Assembly (NCBI RefSeq): GCF_000300515.1 | Contig: NZ_AMSI01000002.1 | Coordinates: 62,001 to 126,000 of the forward strand | Length of the DNA: 64,000 nt | From: Nitratireductor indicus C115 | GTDB taxonomy: Bacteria; Pseudomonadota; Alphaproteobacteria; Rhizobiales; Rhizobiaceae | Direction: 5' to 3' | Part shown: piece after piece, positions 24,524 through 29,326 of the stretch | How positions within the stretch are numbered: position 1 is the first letter of the stretch | How the letters are laid out: each line of letters opens with the position of its first letter | Position numbers and translations under genes: made by a program | The notes under the pieces: model-generated | Databases searched by the model: none | Seen by the model: only the letters and a program-made list of their open reading frames with translations | Told to the model about the DNA's origin: nothing

Positions 24524-25141
24524 TCAGCGGCGCGCAAACGCCAGCCACAAACCGCCGCCAATGAGGAATGTCCCAGAAATACGTTCGGTCAGGCGAATGC
24601 GGCTCTTTGAAAGCCGTGCGCCGGCTCCCCCCGCCAGAACGGCATAAAGTCCGTCGCCAAGCGCGGCAACCGCCATGAAGATAAGGCCAAACAGCACCGT
24701 CTGTAAGGCCGGAGCGCCAAGCGAGGGGTCGACAAACTGAGGAATGAACGCTCCGAAAAACAGGAGGGCCTTCGGGTTCGACCAGATCACGATCAGCCCC
24801 TGAAGAACGAAGGAGCCACCGGGCCTTGCCGCGCGCGTACCCATGTCCAGCGAGCCATCGGACCGCCACAACTTGATTCCGAGCCAGATGAGATAAGCAG
24901 CCCCCAGAAGGCGAAGGATTTCAAAGAAATTGCCCATCACATTGACCACCGCCGAAAGGCCGAACGCGAGGATCATCATCATGGTGAATAGACCGATCTG
25001 CGTGCCGAGAACGTTCAGAAGCCCGGCCCGCATGCCATGCTTGATGGAATTGGCAATGATCACGGTAACCGTCGGGCCCGGCACCACGACGATCAGGAAG
25101 GAAGCGGCAGCGTAAGATAAAAGCACGGCAAGATCAGGCAT
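24524..25141 (-). CDS. LysE/RhtB-family amino acid exporter
   Basis: This 205-residue protein has about six transmembrane segments and the family hallmark VVVPGPTVTVIIANSIKHG near residue 20, with GAAYLIWLGIKLWRS near residue 75. RhtB-type proteins export homoserine, threonine, lysine or similar amino acids; the substrate cannot be read from sequence. It reads away from the small membrane-protein gene that follows, and a LexA-type box lies between them, 124 bases from this start codon. Confidence 0.88.
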   Translation of the reverse strand: MPDLAVLLSYAAASFLIVVVPGPTVTVIIANSIKHGMRAGLLNVLGTQIGLFTMMMILAFGLSAVVNVMGNFFEILRLLGAAYLIWLGIKLWRSDGSLDMGTRAARPGGSFVLQGLIVIWSNPKALLFFGAFIPQFVDPSLGAPALQTVLFGLIFMAVAALGDGLYAVLAGGAGARLSKSRIRLTERISGTFLIGGGLWLAFARR

Positions 25142-25264
25142 CGATCAGTCTCCCCAAAAGCGAACCGGTAGCGATCAAGCTCACAAGTCGCCCCGGCACG
25201 CAACCCCGCTTTTAACGGTAGATATGCAAGGGCGCGCACCGTGTGAACGCACGATGAATAAGGC

Positions 25265-25279
25265 GTTCAAAAAATGTTC
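25265..25279. promoter_or_regulatory. LexA (SOS) box, GTTC-N7-GTTC
   Basis: GTTC-AAAAAAT-GTTC is a perfect match to the direct-repeat LexA site of alphaproteobacteria. It lies in the gap between the LysE-type gene (minus) and the 44-codon small gene (plus), 107 bases before the small gene's ATG. A comparable perfect box is found in front of lexA in this same window (reverse orientation, GAAC-N7-GAAC). Which of the two flanking genes it controls is not settled by position alone, and I could not assign clear -35/-10 boxes. Confidence 0.65.
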
Positions 25280-25386
25280 GAACCAGAACCGCTAGTGAAG
25301 ACACACATAAATGTGAAACGGGTGCAAACAGGCAGGAAGCAACCAAATGGCACCCTTCTTCGTTATGTTGTCAAAGGAGATAAGCC

Positions 25387-25521
25387 ATGCTGATCTTTAC
25401 GCTTGCGGCCGCAATGACCCTGGCCATGCTGATCGCGACGGCGGTCGGCCTGCATGAGGAAGCCAACCGCGTCAAGCTTGAGAACCGTGTCCGCCCGCGC
25501 GCCCGTCAGCGCCACTTCTGA
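25387..25521 (+). CDS. Small single-span membrane protein, putatively SOS-controlled
   Basis: This is a 44-codon gene with the Shine-Dalgarno sequence AGGAG seven bases before an ATG. The product begins MLIFTLAAAMTLAMLIATAV, a single hydrophobic helix at residues 2-21. A charged tail of about 22 residues follows (HEEANRVK..., then an Arg-rich end RVRPRARQRHF). The positive-inside rule places the tail in the cytoplasm. A perfect LexA box lies 107 bases upstream. It is convergent with gyrA, whose stop codon is 45 bases on. I do not recognise a named family. Small SOS-induced inner-membrane division inhibitors such as Caulobacter SidA are a precedent for function, but that is analogy only. Confidence 0.7.
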   Translation: MLIFTLAAAMTLAMLIATAVGLHEEANRVKLENRVRPRARQRHF

Positions 25522-25565: not shown

Positions 25566-28391
25566 CTATTGGCCGCCCTCGCCTCCGGTTTCGCCATTGC
25601 CTTCGGGTGAATTTATCCCTGCAGGCGCTTCCGGGTTCGTCCCGGTATTGATTTCGCCATCGGCTTCGCCTTCCGCGTCGTCGGCCTGCGTGTCCGAAAT
25701 GCGATCCACGGAGACGACCTTCTCACCCTTTGCGGTATTGAAGATCGTAACGCCCTTGGTGGCCCGGCTTGCGATACGAATGCCCCCGACAGGTACGCGG
25801 ATCACCTGCCCTGAATTGGAAACCAGCATGATCTGGTCTTCCTGCTCCACGGGGAAAGCGGCAATAAGCCGCCCGATTTCATCCGTCTTGGAGACATCCG
25901 TTGCGCGGATACCCTTGCCGCCGCGGCCGGTGACGCGGAAATCATAGCTGGAAGAGCGTTTTCCGTAGCCGAACTCGCTGACGGTCAGAACCATCTGCTC
26001 GCGCGCCTTCAGTTCCTCATAAAGGTCCTGCGACAGCACTGCTTCCTCACCGATCTCCTCATTGGTCAGGACGACTTCCTCTTCCTCACCGGTCGCAAGG
26101 CGCCGCTCGGTGGCTGCTTGCTTCAGATAGGCGGCGCGTTGAGCCGGCGAGGCATCCACATGGCCCAGTATGGCCATGGAAATGATGCGGTCGCCTTCGG
26201 CAAGATTTATGCCGCGGACACCGATGGAATTGCGGCCGGCGAAGACACGCACATCCCCCACGCAGAAACGGATACACTGTCCCGATGCCGCCGTAAGCAG
26301 AACGTCGTCATTCTCGGTGCAGGTATCGACCCCGAGAATCTCGTCGCCCTCGTCATCCAGCTTCATGGCGATCTTGCCATTGCGGTTGACCTGGACGAAA
26401 TCCGACAATTTGTTACGTCGGACCGTGCCGCGCGTGGTCGCGAACATGACGTCGAGCGCGCCCCAGCTGTCCTCGTCTTCCGGCAAGGGCATGATCGTGG
26501 TGATGCGCTCGCCTTCTTCCAGCGGCAGCATGTTTCTCAGGAACTTGCCGACCGATTGCGGCGTCCCCACCGGCAACCGCCAGACCTTTTCCTTGTAGAC
26601 GATGCCGCGCGAGGAGAAGAACAGGATCGGTGTATGCGTGTTGGCTACGAAAAGCCGCGTCACCACATCCTCGTCCTTGGTCGACATGCCCGAACGACCC
26701 TTGCCGCCACGCGCCTGCGCCCGATAGATCGAAAGCGGCACCCGCTTGATGTACCCCTTGTGGGTAACCGTGACGACCATATCCTCACGCTGAATCAGGT
26801 CCTCGTCGTCAAGATCGGCCCCACCCTCGGTGATTTCGCTGCGGCGCGGCGTGCCGAACTCGTCGCGAACAGCGATCAGTTCGTCCTTGACGATTTGCTG
26901 GATGCGGGCCCGCGACGAAAGGATTTCCAGATATTCGCTGATTTCAGCACCAATCTGGTTCAGTTCATCGGCAATCTCGTCGCGTCCGAGCGCCGTCAGG
27001 CGCTGCAGGCGCAGTTCGAGAATGGCCCGGGCCTGCTCCTCGGAAAGATTATAGGTGCCGTCTTCGTTGATCCGGTGACGCGGATCGTCGATCAGAAGAA
27101 TGAGCGCCTCGACATCGGCTGCCGGCCAGCGGCGTTCCATCAGTTGCTCGCGCGCCGTCTGCGGATCCGGCGCATGGCGAATAAGCTTGATGATCTCGTC
27201 GATATTGGCGACGGCAATGGCAAGGCCAACCAGGACATGCGCCCGGTCACGCGCCTTGCGCAGAAGATATTTGGTGCGCCGGCTGACGACTTCCTCGCGG
27301 AAGGTCGCAAAGGCCTTGAGCATGTCGAGCAGGTTCATCTGCTCCGGCTTTCCGCCGTTCAGCGCCACCATATTGGCACCGAACGAGGTCTGCAGCGGGG
27401 TGAAGCGGTAGAGCTGGTTCAGCACCACATCGGCCACGGCGTCGCGCTTCAGCTCGACGACGACGCGGTAGCCCTGGCGGTCGCTTTCGTCGCGAATATC
27501 GGAAATGCCCTCGATGCGCTTGTCGCGCACCAGCTCGGCCATCTTCTCGATCATCGACGCCTTGTTCACCTGATAGGGAATCTCGGTGATGATGATCGCT
27601 TCGCGATCATTGCGCGCCGGCTCGATCGACACCCTGCCGCGCATGAGGATCGAGCCGCGCCCGGTCTCATAGGCGCTGCGAATGCCCGAGCGGCCGAGAA
27701 TGAGGCCACCGGTCGGAAAATCCGGCCCTGGAATGATCTGCTGCATGTCAGCGAGCGAAATCGCCGGATTGTCGATCAGCGCGACACAGCCATTGACCAC
27801 CTCGATGAGATTGTGCGGCGGAATATTCGTCGCCATACCCACCGCAATACCGCCCGACCCGTTGACGAGAAGGTTCGGATAGCGGGCAGGAAGAACCTTC
27901 GGCTCCGACCCGGACGCATCGTATGTGTCCTGGAAGTCGACCGTTTCCTTGTCGATATCCTCCAGAAGCTCGTGAGCTCCCTTCGTCAGGCGCGATTCGG
28001 TATAACGCATCGCCGCAGGCGGATCGCCGTCGATGGAACCGAAATTGCCCTGCCCGTCGATGAGCGGCAGGCGCATGGACCAATCCTGCGCCATACGCAC
28101 AAGGGCGTCGTAGATCGCGGCATCGCCATGCGGATGGTATTTACCCATCACGTCGGCGACAGGGCGCGCCGACTTCACATATTTGCGGTTCCAGTGATAG
28201 CCGCTCTCATGCGAGGCGTAGAGAATGCGCCGGTGCACCGGCTTAAGGCCATCGCGCGCATCGGGCAGCGCTCGCGACACGATTACGCTCATGGCGTAAT
28301 CGAGATATGAGCGCTGCATCTCCTCGATAATGGAAATCGGTTCGATGTCGTCGGGCTCACCGGGCCCGTGCGGCGTCGTCTGGTCGGTCAA
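25566..28391 (-). CDS. gyrA: DNA gyrase subunit A
   Basis: This 941-residue subunit breaks and rejoins DNA. The N-terminal domain carries [20 protein letters not shown] and the catalytic Tyr130 in [10 protein letters not shown]. The quinolone-resistance region reads [17 protein letters not shown]: the position equivalent to E. coli Ser83 is Ala91, and the Asp87 equivalent is Asp95. The C-terminal DNA-wrapping domain has the GyrA box ([11 protein letters not shown] near residue 570), and the protein ends in an acidic Glu/Gly-rich tail of about 40 residues. The start giving [15 protein letters not shown] is a TTG with no strong Shine-Dalgarno sequence; no ATG fits better before the conserved [17 protein letters not shown]. 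Confidence 0.97.
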
Positions 28392-28612: not shown

Positions 28613-29239
28613 ATGCCAGGACCGGACGCGGTTTTCAATGCCTTCGTGACGCTCCTCGTCACGGTCGATCCGCCGGGACTGGCACCGTTGTTCCTCGCGC
28701 TCACCACGGGCATGAACCGCTCCGAACGCAACCAGGTGGGTGTCCGCGCCGCCATTATCGGCTTCGGAGTCCTTGCGCTGTTTGGCGTGGCCGGGGCCGC
28801 GATCCTCTCGGTTTTCGGCATAACACTGCCCGCCTTCCGCGTAGCCGGTGGCCTGCTTCTGTTCTTCATCGCCTTCGAAATGATTTTCGAGCGGCGCCAG
28901 GAGCGCCACGAACGCAGCGCGGAACGCGCCATCACCCGCGACATGATACACAACATCGCGGCCTTCCCGCTGGCCATTCCGCTCATTGCCGGGCCCGGTG
29001 CGATTTCGGCAACGGTGCTTCTGTCCGGTTCTTTCAAGGGTATTGCCGGGACTGCCACCCTGCTCGCGATCCTGCTTTCCACCATCGTCCTGACCTATGC
29101 CGTCTTCGTGCTTGCCGAGCGTATCGACCGGTTTCTCGGGGAAACAGGCAGGTCCATTCTCACCCGTCTGCTCGGCGTGATACTGGCCGCGCTTGCAGTC
29201 CAGTTCGTGGCGGATGGCGTCAAGGCGCTGTTCTCGTAA
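28613..29239 (+). CDS. MarC/UPF0056 family integral membrane protein
   Basis: This 208-residue protein belongs to the MarC family (COG2095), with about six transmembrane helices and the conserved VTVDPPGLAPLFLALT near residue 17. The start MPGPDAVFNAFVTLL is supported by AGGAGAG seven bases before the ATG; 47 in-frame codons upstream do not look coding. The function of the family is unknown despite the historical link to multiple antibiotic resistance. The 221 bases between it and gyrA contain no gene that I can support. Confidence 0.88.
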   Translation: MPGPDAVFNAFVTLLVTVDPPGLAPLFLALTTGMNRSERNQVGVRAAIIGFGVLALFGVAGAAILSVFGITLPAFRVAGGLLLFFIAFEMIFERRQERHERSAERAITRDMIHNIAAFPLAIPLIAGPGAISATVLLSGSFKGIAGTATLLAILLSTIVLTYAVFVLAERIDRFLGETGRSILTRLLGVILAALAVQFVADGVKALFS

Positions 29240-29258: not shown

Positions 29259-29304
29259 TTGCAGAACACAACTGGAACATATAGAGTATGTTCTGGTTTT
29301 GTTT
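29259..29304 (+). promoter_or_regulatory. lexA promoter with two LexA boxes
   Basis: A TTGCAG -35 box (29259-29264), a 17-base spacer and a TAGAGT -10 box (29282-29287) can be placed. GAAC-ACAACTG-GAAC (29264-29278), a perfect GAAC-N7-GAAC box, fills the spacer. A second, imperfect box GTTC-N7-GTTT (29290-29304) covers the likely transcription start. This is the arrangement expected for LexA autorepression. Confidence 0.75.
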
Positions 29305-29326
29305 TTAACTGATTCCGGGGAAGCCC

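Follow-up and report, generated by a model that had tools for sequence, protein, structure and literature searches.

FeuP is a PhoP-like response regulator associated with envelope and osmotic stress, and ndvA is its classical and best-known target. Earlier studies name TTCA-N7-TTCA as a candidate FeuP site that is present at feuN (Schluter et al. 2013, PMC3616915), and report that FeuN acts on FeuQ and that over-active FeuPQ signalling costs viability (PMC12486126). Two further papers describe MgrB as tuning the PhoQ kinase (PMC8404706) and give GGAAC-N16-CGTT as the consensus of Rhizobium etli EcfG1 (PMC3892343). We compare with these systems a small gene beside gyrA in a stretch of 64,000 nucleotides of Nitratireductor DNA (the window, i.e. 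the whole stretch analysed), which the original prediction had read as an SOS-controlled gene behind a perfect LexA box.

A small membrane-protein gene beside gyrA

The 424-bp gap between a LysE-type gene (start at 25141) and gyrA (stop at 25566) contains a 44-codon ORF whose ATG at 25387 lies 107 bases past the supposed LexA box and seven bases past a ribosome-binding site, all as originally described (Table 1). Its translation, MLIFTLAAAMTLAMLIATAVGLHEEANRVKLENRVRPRARQRHF, contains a hydrophobic stretch with a Kyte-Doolittle mean of 2.3 over the best 19 residues and, past residue 21, a C-terminal tail with a net charge of +4, in agreement with the helix and basic tail that had been claimed. 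The check proposed for the reading frame, its conservation in relatives, came out in favour of a gene: in a search of 61 genomes (the window's own and relatives) the ORF was matched in all 11 genus genomes, one copy being frameshifted, and the median dN/dS was 0.06 (45 pairs of ten Nitratireductor copies, first 34 codons). Column entropies were 0.96, 0.59 and 1.40 for codon positions 1, 2 and 3, the third being the most variable, and residues L6, A9, M10, A17, and T18 are invariant in 17 sequences. The frameshift (genome G004, locus L016) falls after about residue 21 of the small gene, is the only one among the genus copies, and represents either an assembly error or decay.

A profile search (E up to 0.1, a cut-off loose enough to leave the weakest matches uncertain) matched the gene in 139 of the family's 247 genomes, and among its 109 genera in 71. 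An order-wide search gave matches at E 0.01 in four of 199 genomes, all from the same family. By its named relatives the window belongs in Nitratireductor or very close to it, Chelativorans, Aquamicrobium, and Mesorhizobium being more distant. The small gene is adjoined by gyrA in 79 of 80 and 72 of 77 loci of two partly overlapping sets. The set of 80 was kept from 117 loci encoding a relative; a set of 75 non-redundant loci was picked by ORF match from 168 overlapping loci and includes the frameshifted copy. Shinella has a 41-aa gene beside gyrA that is a copy of the small gene by sequence and carries both arms of the upstream element described below; in S. meliloti Ak57 no copy could be recognised next to gyrA. 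All matches of the 44-aa ORF in Pfam and NCBIfam fell below threshold. The gene is not described in the literature titles and abstract openings searched, and neither gyrA nor RpoE2 appears in the main text of an S. meliloti small-proteome paper (PMC10117765). By these sequence comparisons, the 44-codon ORF is a true gene under strong purifying selection at the protein level, and it encodes a conserved small inner-membrane protein of the Rhizobiaceae with a predicted N-terminal helix and a basic tail predicted to be cytoplasmic.

Table 1. Positions, strands, and supporting evidence of features of the small-gene locus and of the lexA comparison site in the window.
Feature	Position	Strand	Basis
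Left arm TGAA-N7-TGAA, candidate FeuP site	25243-25260	+	20.8 bits against a matrix built without the window row
Right arm TTCA-N7-TTCG, includes supposed LexA box (25265-25279)	25265-25281	-	Ungapped register, 48 non-redundant loci
Possible -10 of FeuP-activated promoter, CTAGTG	25292-25297	+	Block partly conserved in genus alignment; putative
ECF-sigma (EcfG-like) promoter GCAAC-N17-CGTT	25339-25364	+	GNAAC-N15-17-CGTT pattern
Ribosome-binding site AAAGGAG	25373-25379	+	Present in all 11 aligned genus copies
Gene of 44-aa single-pass inner-membrane protein	25387-25521	+	dN/dS 0.06, family matches, gyrA adjacency
Genuine LexA box of lexA, comparison site, GAACACAACTGGAAC	29264-29278	-	Conserved in seven relatives with lexA in range

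The symmetric upstream element and FeuP

Upstream of the gene we identified a conserved element, TGAA-N7-TGAA-N7-TTCA-N7-TTCA (25243-25281), which consists of two facing 11-bp direct repeats; in the window the left arm is exact and the right arm has one change. The supposed LexA box (GTTCAAAAAATGTTC), an exact GTTCN7GTTC present at 25265 as described, is the right arm of this element in the alignment register. The element corresponds to an ungapped block, ATGAACG-N4-ATGAACG-N6-TCA(G/C)-N6-GTTCAA, of about 40 bits, derived from the 48 of 75 non-redundant loci that have TGAAY-N6-TGAAY in range (the remaining 27 did not enter the matrix). TGAACN6TGAAY occurs in 42 of the 75 loci, compared with 0.04 in shuffles. 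Among the 80 loci, the left arm is present in 60 of 63 without LysE and in 13 of 17 with LysE, and the element thus accompanies the small gene. What was upheld is the broader prediction of a gene for a small inner-membrane protein that is preceded by a regulatory site and conserved together with it, this element being the site. In a Rhizobium-like group (L221, L223, L227, and L228 among them) the gene and a GGAAC promoter are kept and the element is absent.

Run over the 11 genus genomes, a model of the element (R1) placed it at two to five sites per genome (E up to 0.01, these values being rough), and the 30 loci returned were read. They comprised the small-gene locus (n = 10), a transmembrane protein (n = 11), secreted proteins (n = 4), and a heat-shock locus (n = 5), so that 25 of 30 precede genes of small transmembrane or secreted proteins. 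The small-gene locus carries the element in all 11 genomes, the frameshifted one at E 0.059. Likewise, a gene for a 54-56-aa transmembrane protein (e.g. MLMRRFTIVCL.. in L248) follows the element in 11 of 11 genomes, its start codon about 80 bp past the element start. This protein has two cysteines in its predicted periplasmic part, and its layout is, in our estimation, reminiscent of PhoQ inhibitors such as MgrB; one copy (L255) had no match in Pfam or NCBIfam. Two families of secreted proteins, of 117-137 aa (L262, L264) and 87-101 aa (L031, L271, L272), are encoded directly downstream of the element, and one copy of each gave nothing above the Pfam and NCBIfam cut-offs. At a further locus (L266-L269, L273, L032) the element lies between divergent small heat-shock-like and lysophospholipase-like genes, which were named by eye; in the copies inspected, hairpin-like CACCGG..CCGGTG and GCCGGAAGCG..CGCTTCCGGC stand between the element and the lysophospholipase gene and are possibly a small RNA or a terminator.

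A search for the OmpR-type DNA-binding domain found 15 matches in the window's genome. Of these 15 response-regulator loci, L287 is the only one where the repeat occurs within a flank of about 1.5 kb to either side, and it occurs there twice; a hand estimate puts the chance expectation over the 15 loci at about 1.5, against this total of two. The regulator encoded at L287 has 80.5% identity to the annotated FeuP of S. meliloti (strain Ak57, from a 3.7-Mb record labelled pSymB), and the gene order feuN-feuP-feuQ is the same as in S. meliloti (FeuN-like protein 39.5%, FeuQ 49% identity). The best-scoring models for FeuP and FeuQ of the window's genome were those of PhoP and PhoQ, with scores under the cut-offs. 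A left-arm matrix built from small-gene loci, with no feuN data entered, had its best site in the feuN promoter, or in that of the equivalent gene, at five of five FeuP loci examined, with 21.1 bits each in S. meliloti, Sinorhizobium C101, and Shinella, 15.6 bits in the window's genome (L287), and 13.7 bits in Methylobacterium, where the gene upstream, an ORF of 128 codons, is unannotated. These five loci are not independent, since FeuN is identical in S. meliloti and Sinorhizobium C101. Scores of 13.7-21.1 bits are reached at one of 127,964 window positions, the small gene's own left arm. As controls, the next of the 15 response-regulator loci scored 8.5 bits, and recA, nepR, and tolQ at most 7.1 bits. 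A model of ndvA/chvA found no match at E 1e-100 in any of the 11 genus genomes. From the matching sites at feuN we infer that FeuP control is the best-supported replacement for SOS control.

The second promoter and alternative readings

Between the element and the gene lies an ECF-type promoter, about 50 bp ahead of the start codon. Its pattern, GNAAC-N15-17-CGTT, was found ahead of 61 of the 75 non-redundant copies, compared with 0.77 in shuffles. The second base of the -35 in these 61 copies is A in 43, C in 10, G in eight, and T in none; the window has GCAAC, as against the EcfG-type GGAAC of those eight copies. NepR is encoded in 11 of 11 genus genomes, and GGAAC-N16-CGTT was found in 22 of 22 genus promoters of nepR and its divergent neighbour, presumably phyR by gene order. 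The simplest reader of the second promoter would be an EcfG-type sigma factor; as the -35 departs from GGAAC, another ECF sigma factor could also read it. A short upstream ORF starting at ATGAAACC was rejected, as its frame is not kept between genera, the promoter spacing differing by one base between them.

For the LexA comparison a genus matrix was built from four site classes, lexA (n = 8), uvrA (n = 9), and two classes of recA (n = 11 each). The uvrA sites came from nine of 11 genomes (one locus was cut short and one had no site), and the recA sites were hand-picked, conserved sites with one mismatch. With the own site class left out, genuine LexA boxes score 7.8-23.5 bits. The original prediction had lexA 4 kb away with its own perfect box. 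The distance was confirmed; the exact string at 29230, GTTCTCGTAAGGTTC, overlaps the stop codon of a MarC-type ORF and is not conserved, no counterpart being seen ahead of the other seven lexA genes, and the conserved box is that at 29264. A second strong LexA-type site of lexA (23.3 bits) occupies window positions 29286-29308. In all 11 genus genomes the recA match is preceded, at distances of 116 and 182 bp, by two LexA boxes that are imperfect but conserved; one half-site base is changed in each, and searches for exact GTTCN7GTTC therefore miss recA.

In the SOS reading, GTTCAAAAAATGTTC would be the site from which LexA represses the 44-aa gene, whose product would be a SidA-like division inhibitor made after DNA damage. 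The exact GTTCN7GTTC with an A/T-rich spacer and the nearby lexA are in line with this reading, as is SidA itself, a 29-aa SOS-induced inner-membrane protein (PMC4211646). GTTCN7GTTC is no rare string here: the window contains five in 64 kb compared with 1.98 expected, and seven of 100 shuffles reach five. On its own strand the stretch scores 1.1 bits (rank 110 of 127,954 positions) against the 7.8 bits or more of genuine boxes; in the opposite orientation it scores 9.5 bits (rank 4), at the low end of the genuine range, through a run of T and without the GTTC cores. Among the 80 relatives, the best LexA score per 200-bp upstream region has a median of 3.3, as against -1.4 (95th percentile 5.9) in 400 random 200-bp windows, and two Chelativorans regions reach 16.4 and 19.3. 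GAACN7GAAC is contained in 59 of the 80 upstream regions, but it is part of TGAAC-N6-TGAAC, and the conserved letters reach further and match the feuN promoters. That gene and box are conserved together was not borne out, with the exact box kept in three of 11 genus copies and in five of 75 non-redundant loci (0.11 in shuffles); other sets had it in four of 80 and three of 77 loci. Seven of ten occurrences in the 168 loci, and two of five in the non-redundant set, are in the right-arm register. The exact box is thus above chance, but to judge from the alignments its occurrence largely follows from the larger conserved element. Within the roughly 5-kb downstream flank (five flanks were shorter), lexA was found in seven of 80 loci, all Nitratireductor. 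On these comparisons LexA control of the gene is improbable; the SOS interpretation is probably wrong, and the proximity of lexA is local to Nitratireductor.

CenR was the first candidate regulator weighed, because its motif, proposed across alphaproteobacteria (PMC9275681), is TGA-N8-TGA. The left arm contains TGA-N8-TGA and the right arm TCA-N8-TCA, as a site of the CenKR envelope system would, but in all 11 genus genomes the 260 bp ahead of the match to the predicted target tolQ lack such a motif in both orientations, and the longer consensus matches feuN instead; we give little credence to CenR as the regulator. It is unlikely, if slightly less so, that the gene belongs mainly to an EcfG general-stress regulon, with the element bound by another OmpR-family regulator such as a FeuP paralogue. 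No element is in fact kept more widely than the ECF promoter (61 of 75), S. meliloti has a FeuP-like paralogue, SMc02366 (PMC5539429), and L295 encodes another PhoP-like regulator in the window's genome; against this, feuNPQ alone among the 15 response-regulator loci has a matching site. Lastly, the original prediction had allowed that the box might serve the divergent exporter. A palindromic element could act both ways and the LysE-type start is only about 100 bp away, so that element and promoters might drive the exporter or a non-coding RNA, the ORF being incidental. Yet the left arm persists in 60 of the 63 loci that lack LysE, the ECF promoter faces the ORF and in most copies lies 21-25 bp from its ATG, and the ORF is under strong purifying selection, which together make this reading highly improbable. 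As a separate observation, a conserved block, TTAATTAACCATAACGG.TCATGAAGAAA..CATGAAAT, with a TGAA repeat of period 12, lies about 200-250 bp before the tolQ match in the tolQ loci (L274-L284).

Proposed function and comparison with known systems

We consider it fairly probable, on the sequence evidence, that the gene encodes a stress-induced small inner-membrane protein controlled by FeuP and an ECF sigma factor, outside the SOS response, which probably modulates a putative membrane partner. Phosphorylated FeuP would bind the element and activate a promoter just downstream (-10 near 25292); the second promoter would depend on a general-stress sigma factor of the EcfG type. With two promoters the protein could be made in envelope, osmotic, and general stress. 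In the inner membrane it would modulate its putative partner, which may be a sensor kinase, a transporter, or an envelope enzyme. The invariance of L6, A9, M10, A17, and T18 suggests contact with a membrane partner, and such residues may mediate it by helix-helix packing. By analogy, partner modulation would probably resemble that by other small proteins of PhoP-type circuits. A more specific reading, which we regard as speculative and rather doubtful, places the 44-aa protein in the FeuPQ circuit as a new small transmembrane modulator that is controlled by both FeuP and an EcfG-type sigma factor and adjusts FeuQ or another envelope sensor. If true, general stress and a PhoPQ-like envelope system would be connected through it, and the protein would act alongside a second one, the 54-56-aa transmembrane protein encoded after the same element.

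A plausible but probably wrong SOS call has turned into a regulon that is open to testing. GTTCN7GTTC can sit within an OmpR-family site of the same 11-bp period, and SOS predictions from the core string in Rhizobiaceae can therefore include look-alikes. Gained are an 18-bp FeuP-type site, checked against the feuN promoters of five species that had no part in its construction, an architecture of two inverted sites, and a handful of small envelope proteins of Nitratireductor as candidates.

The 44-aa protein resembles SidA and DidA, the division inhibitors of Caulobacter, in being a very small single-pass inner-membrane protein that is putatively made under stress. This likeness is one of description, and SidA is LexA-controlled, whereas LexA control of the 44-aa gene is without support. 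Genes of the EcfG (RpoE2) regulon share with it GNAAC-N15-17-CGTT about 50 bp before the start and a genome that encodes NepR, but the second base of the small gene's -35 is mostly A or C, not G, and an activator-like element lies upstream. MgrB, a PhoP-induced 47-aa inhibitor of PhoQ, is likewise a small transmembrane protein, and the 44-aa gene would here be under a PhoP-type regulator. The 44-aa protein differs in having no convincing Pfam or NCBIfam family match, and in that a kinase target is for it putative. The layout of MgrB is moreover opposite to that of the 44-aa protein, whose basic tail is C-terminal. With FeuN and FeuPQ of S. meliloti the locus shares upstream TTCA/TGAA repeats of 11-bp period and a genome that contains feuNPQ, and the other element-bearing Nitratireductor genes also encode small envelope proteins. 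FeuN, however, is periplasmic and encoded inside the feuPQ operon, whereas the 44-aa protein is a predicted membrane protein encoded beside gyrA, and its gene has a doubled inverted site together with an ECF promoter.
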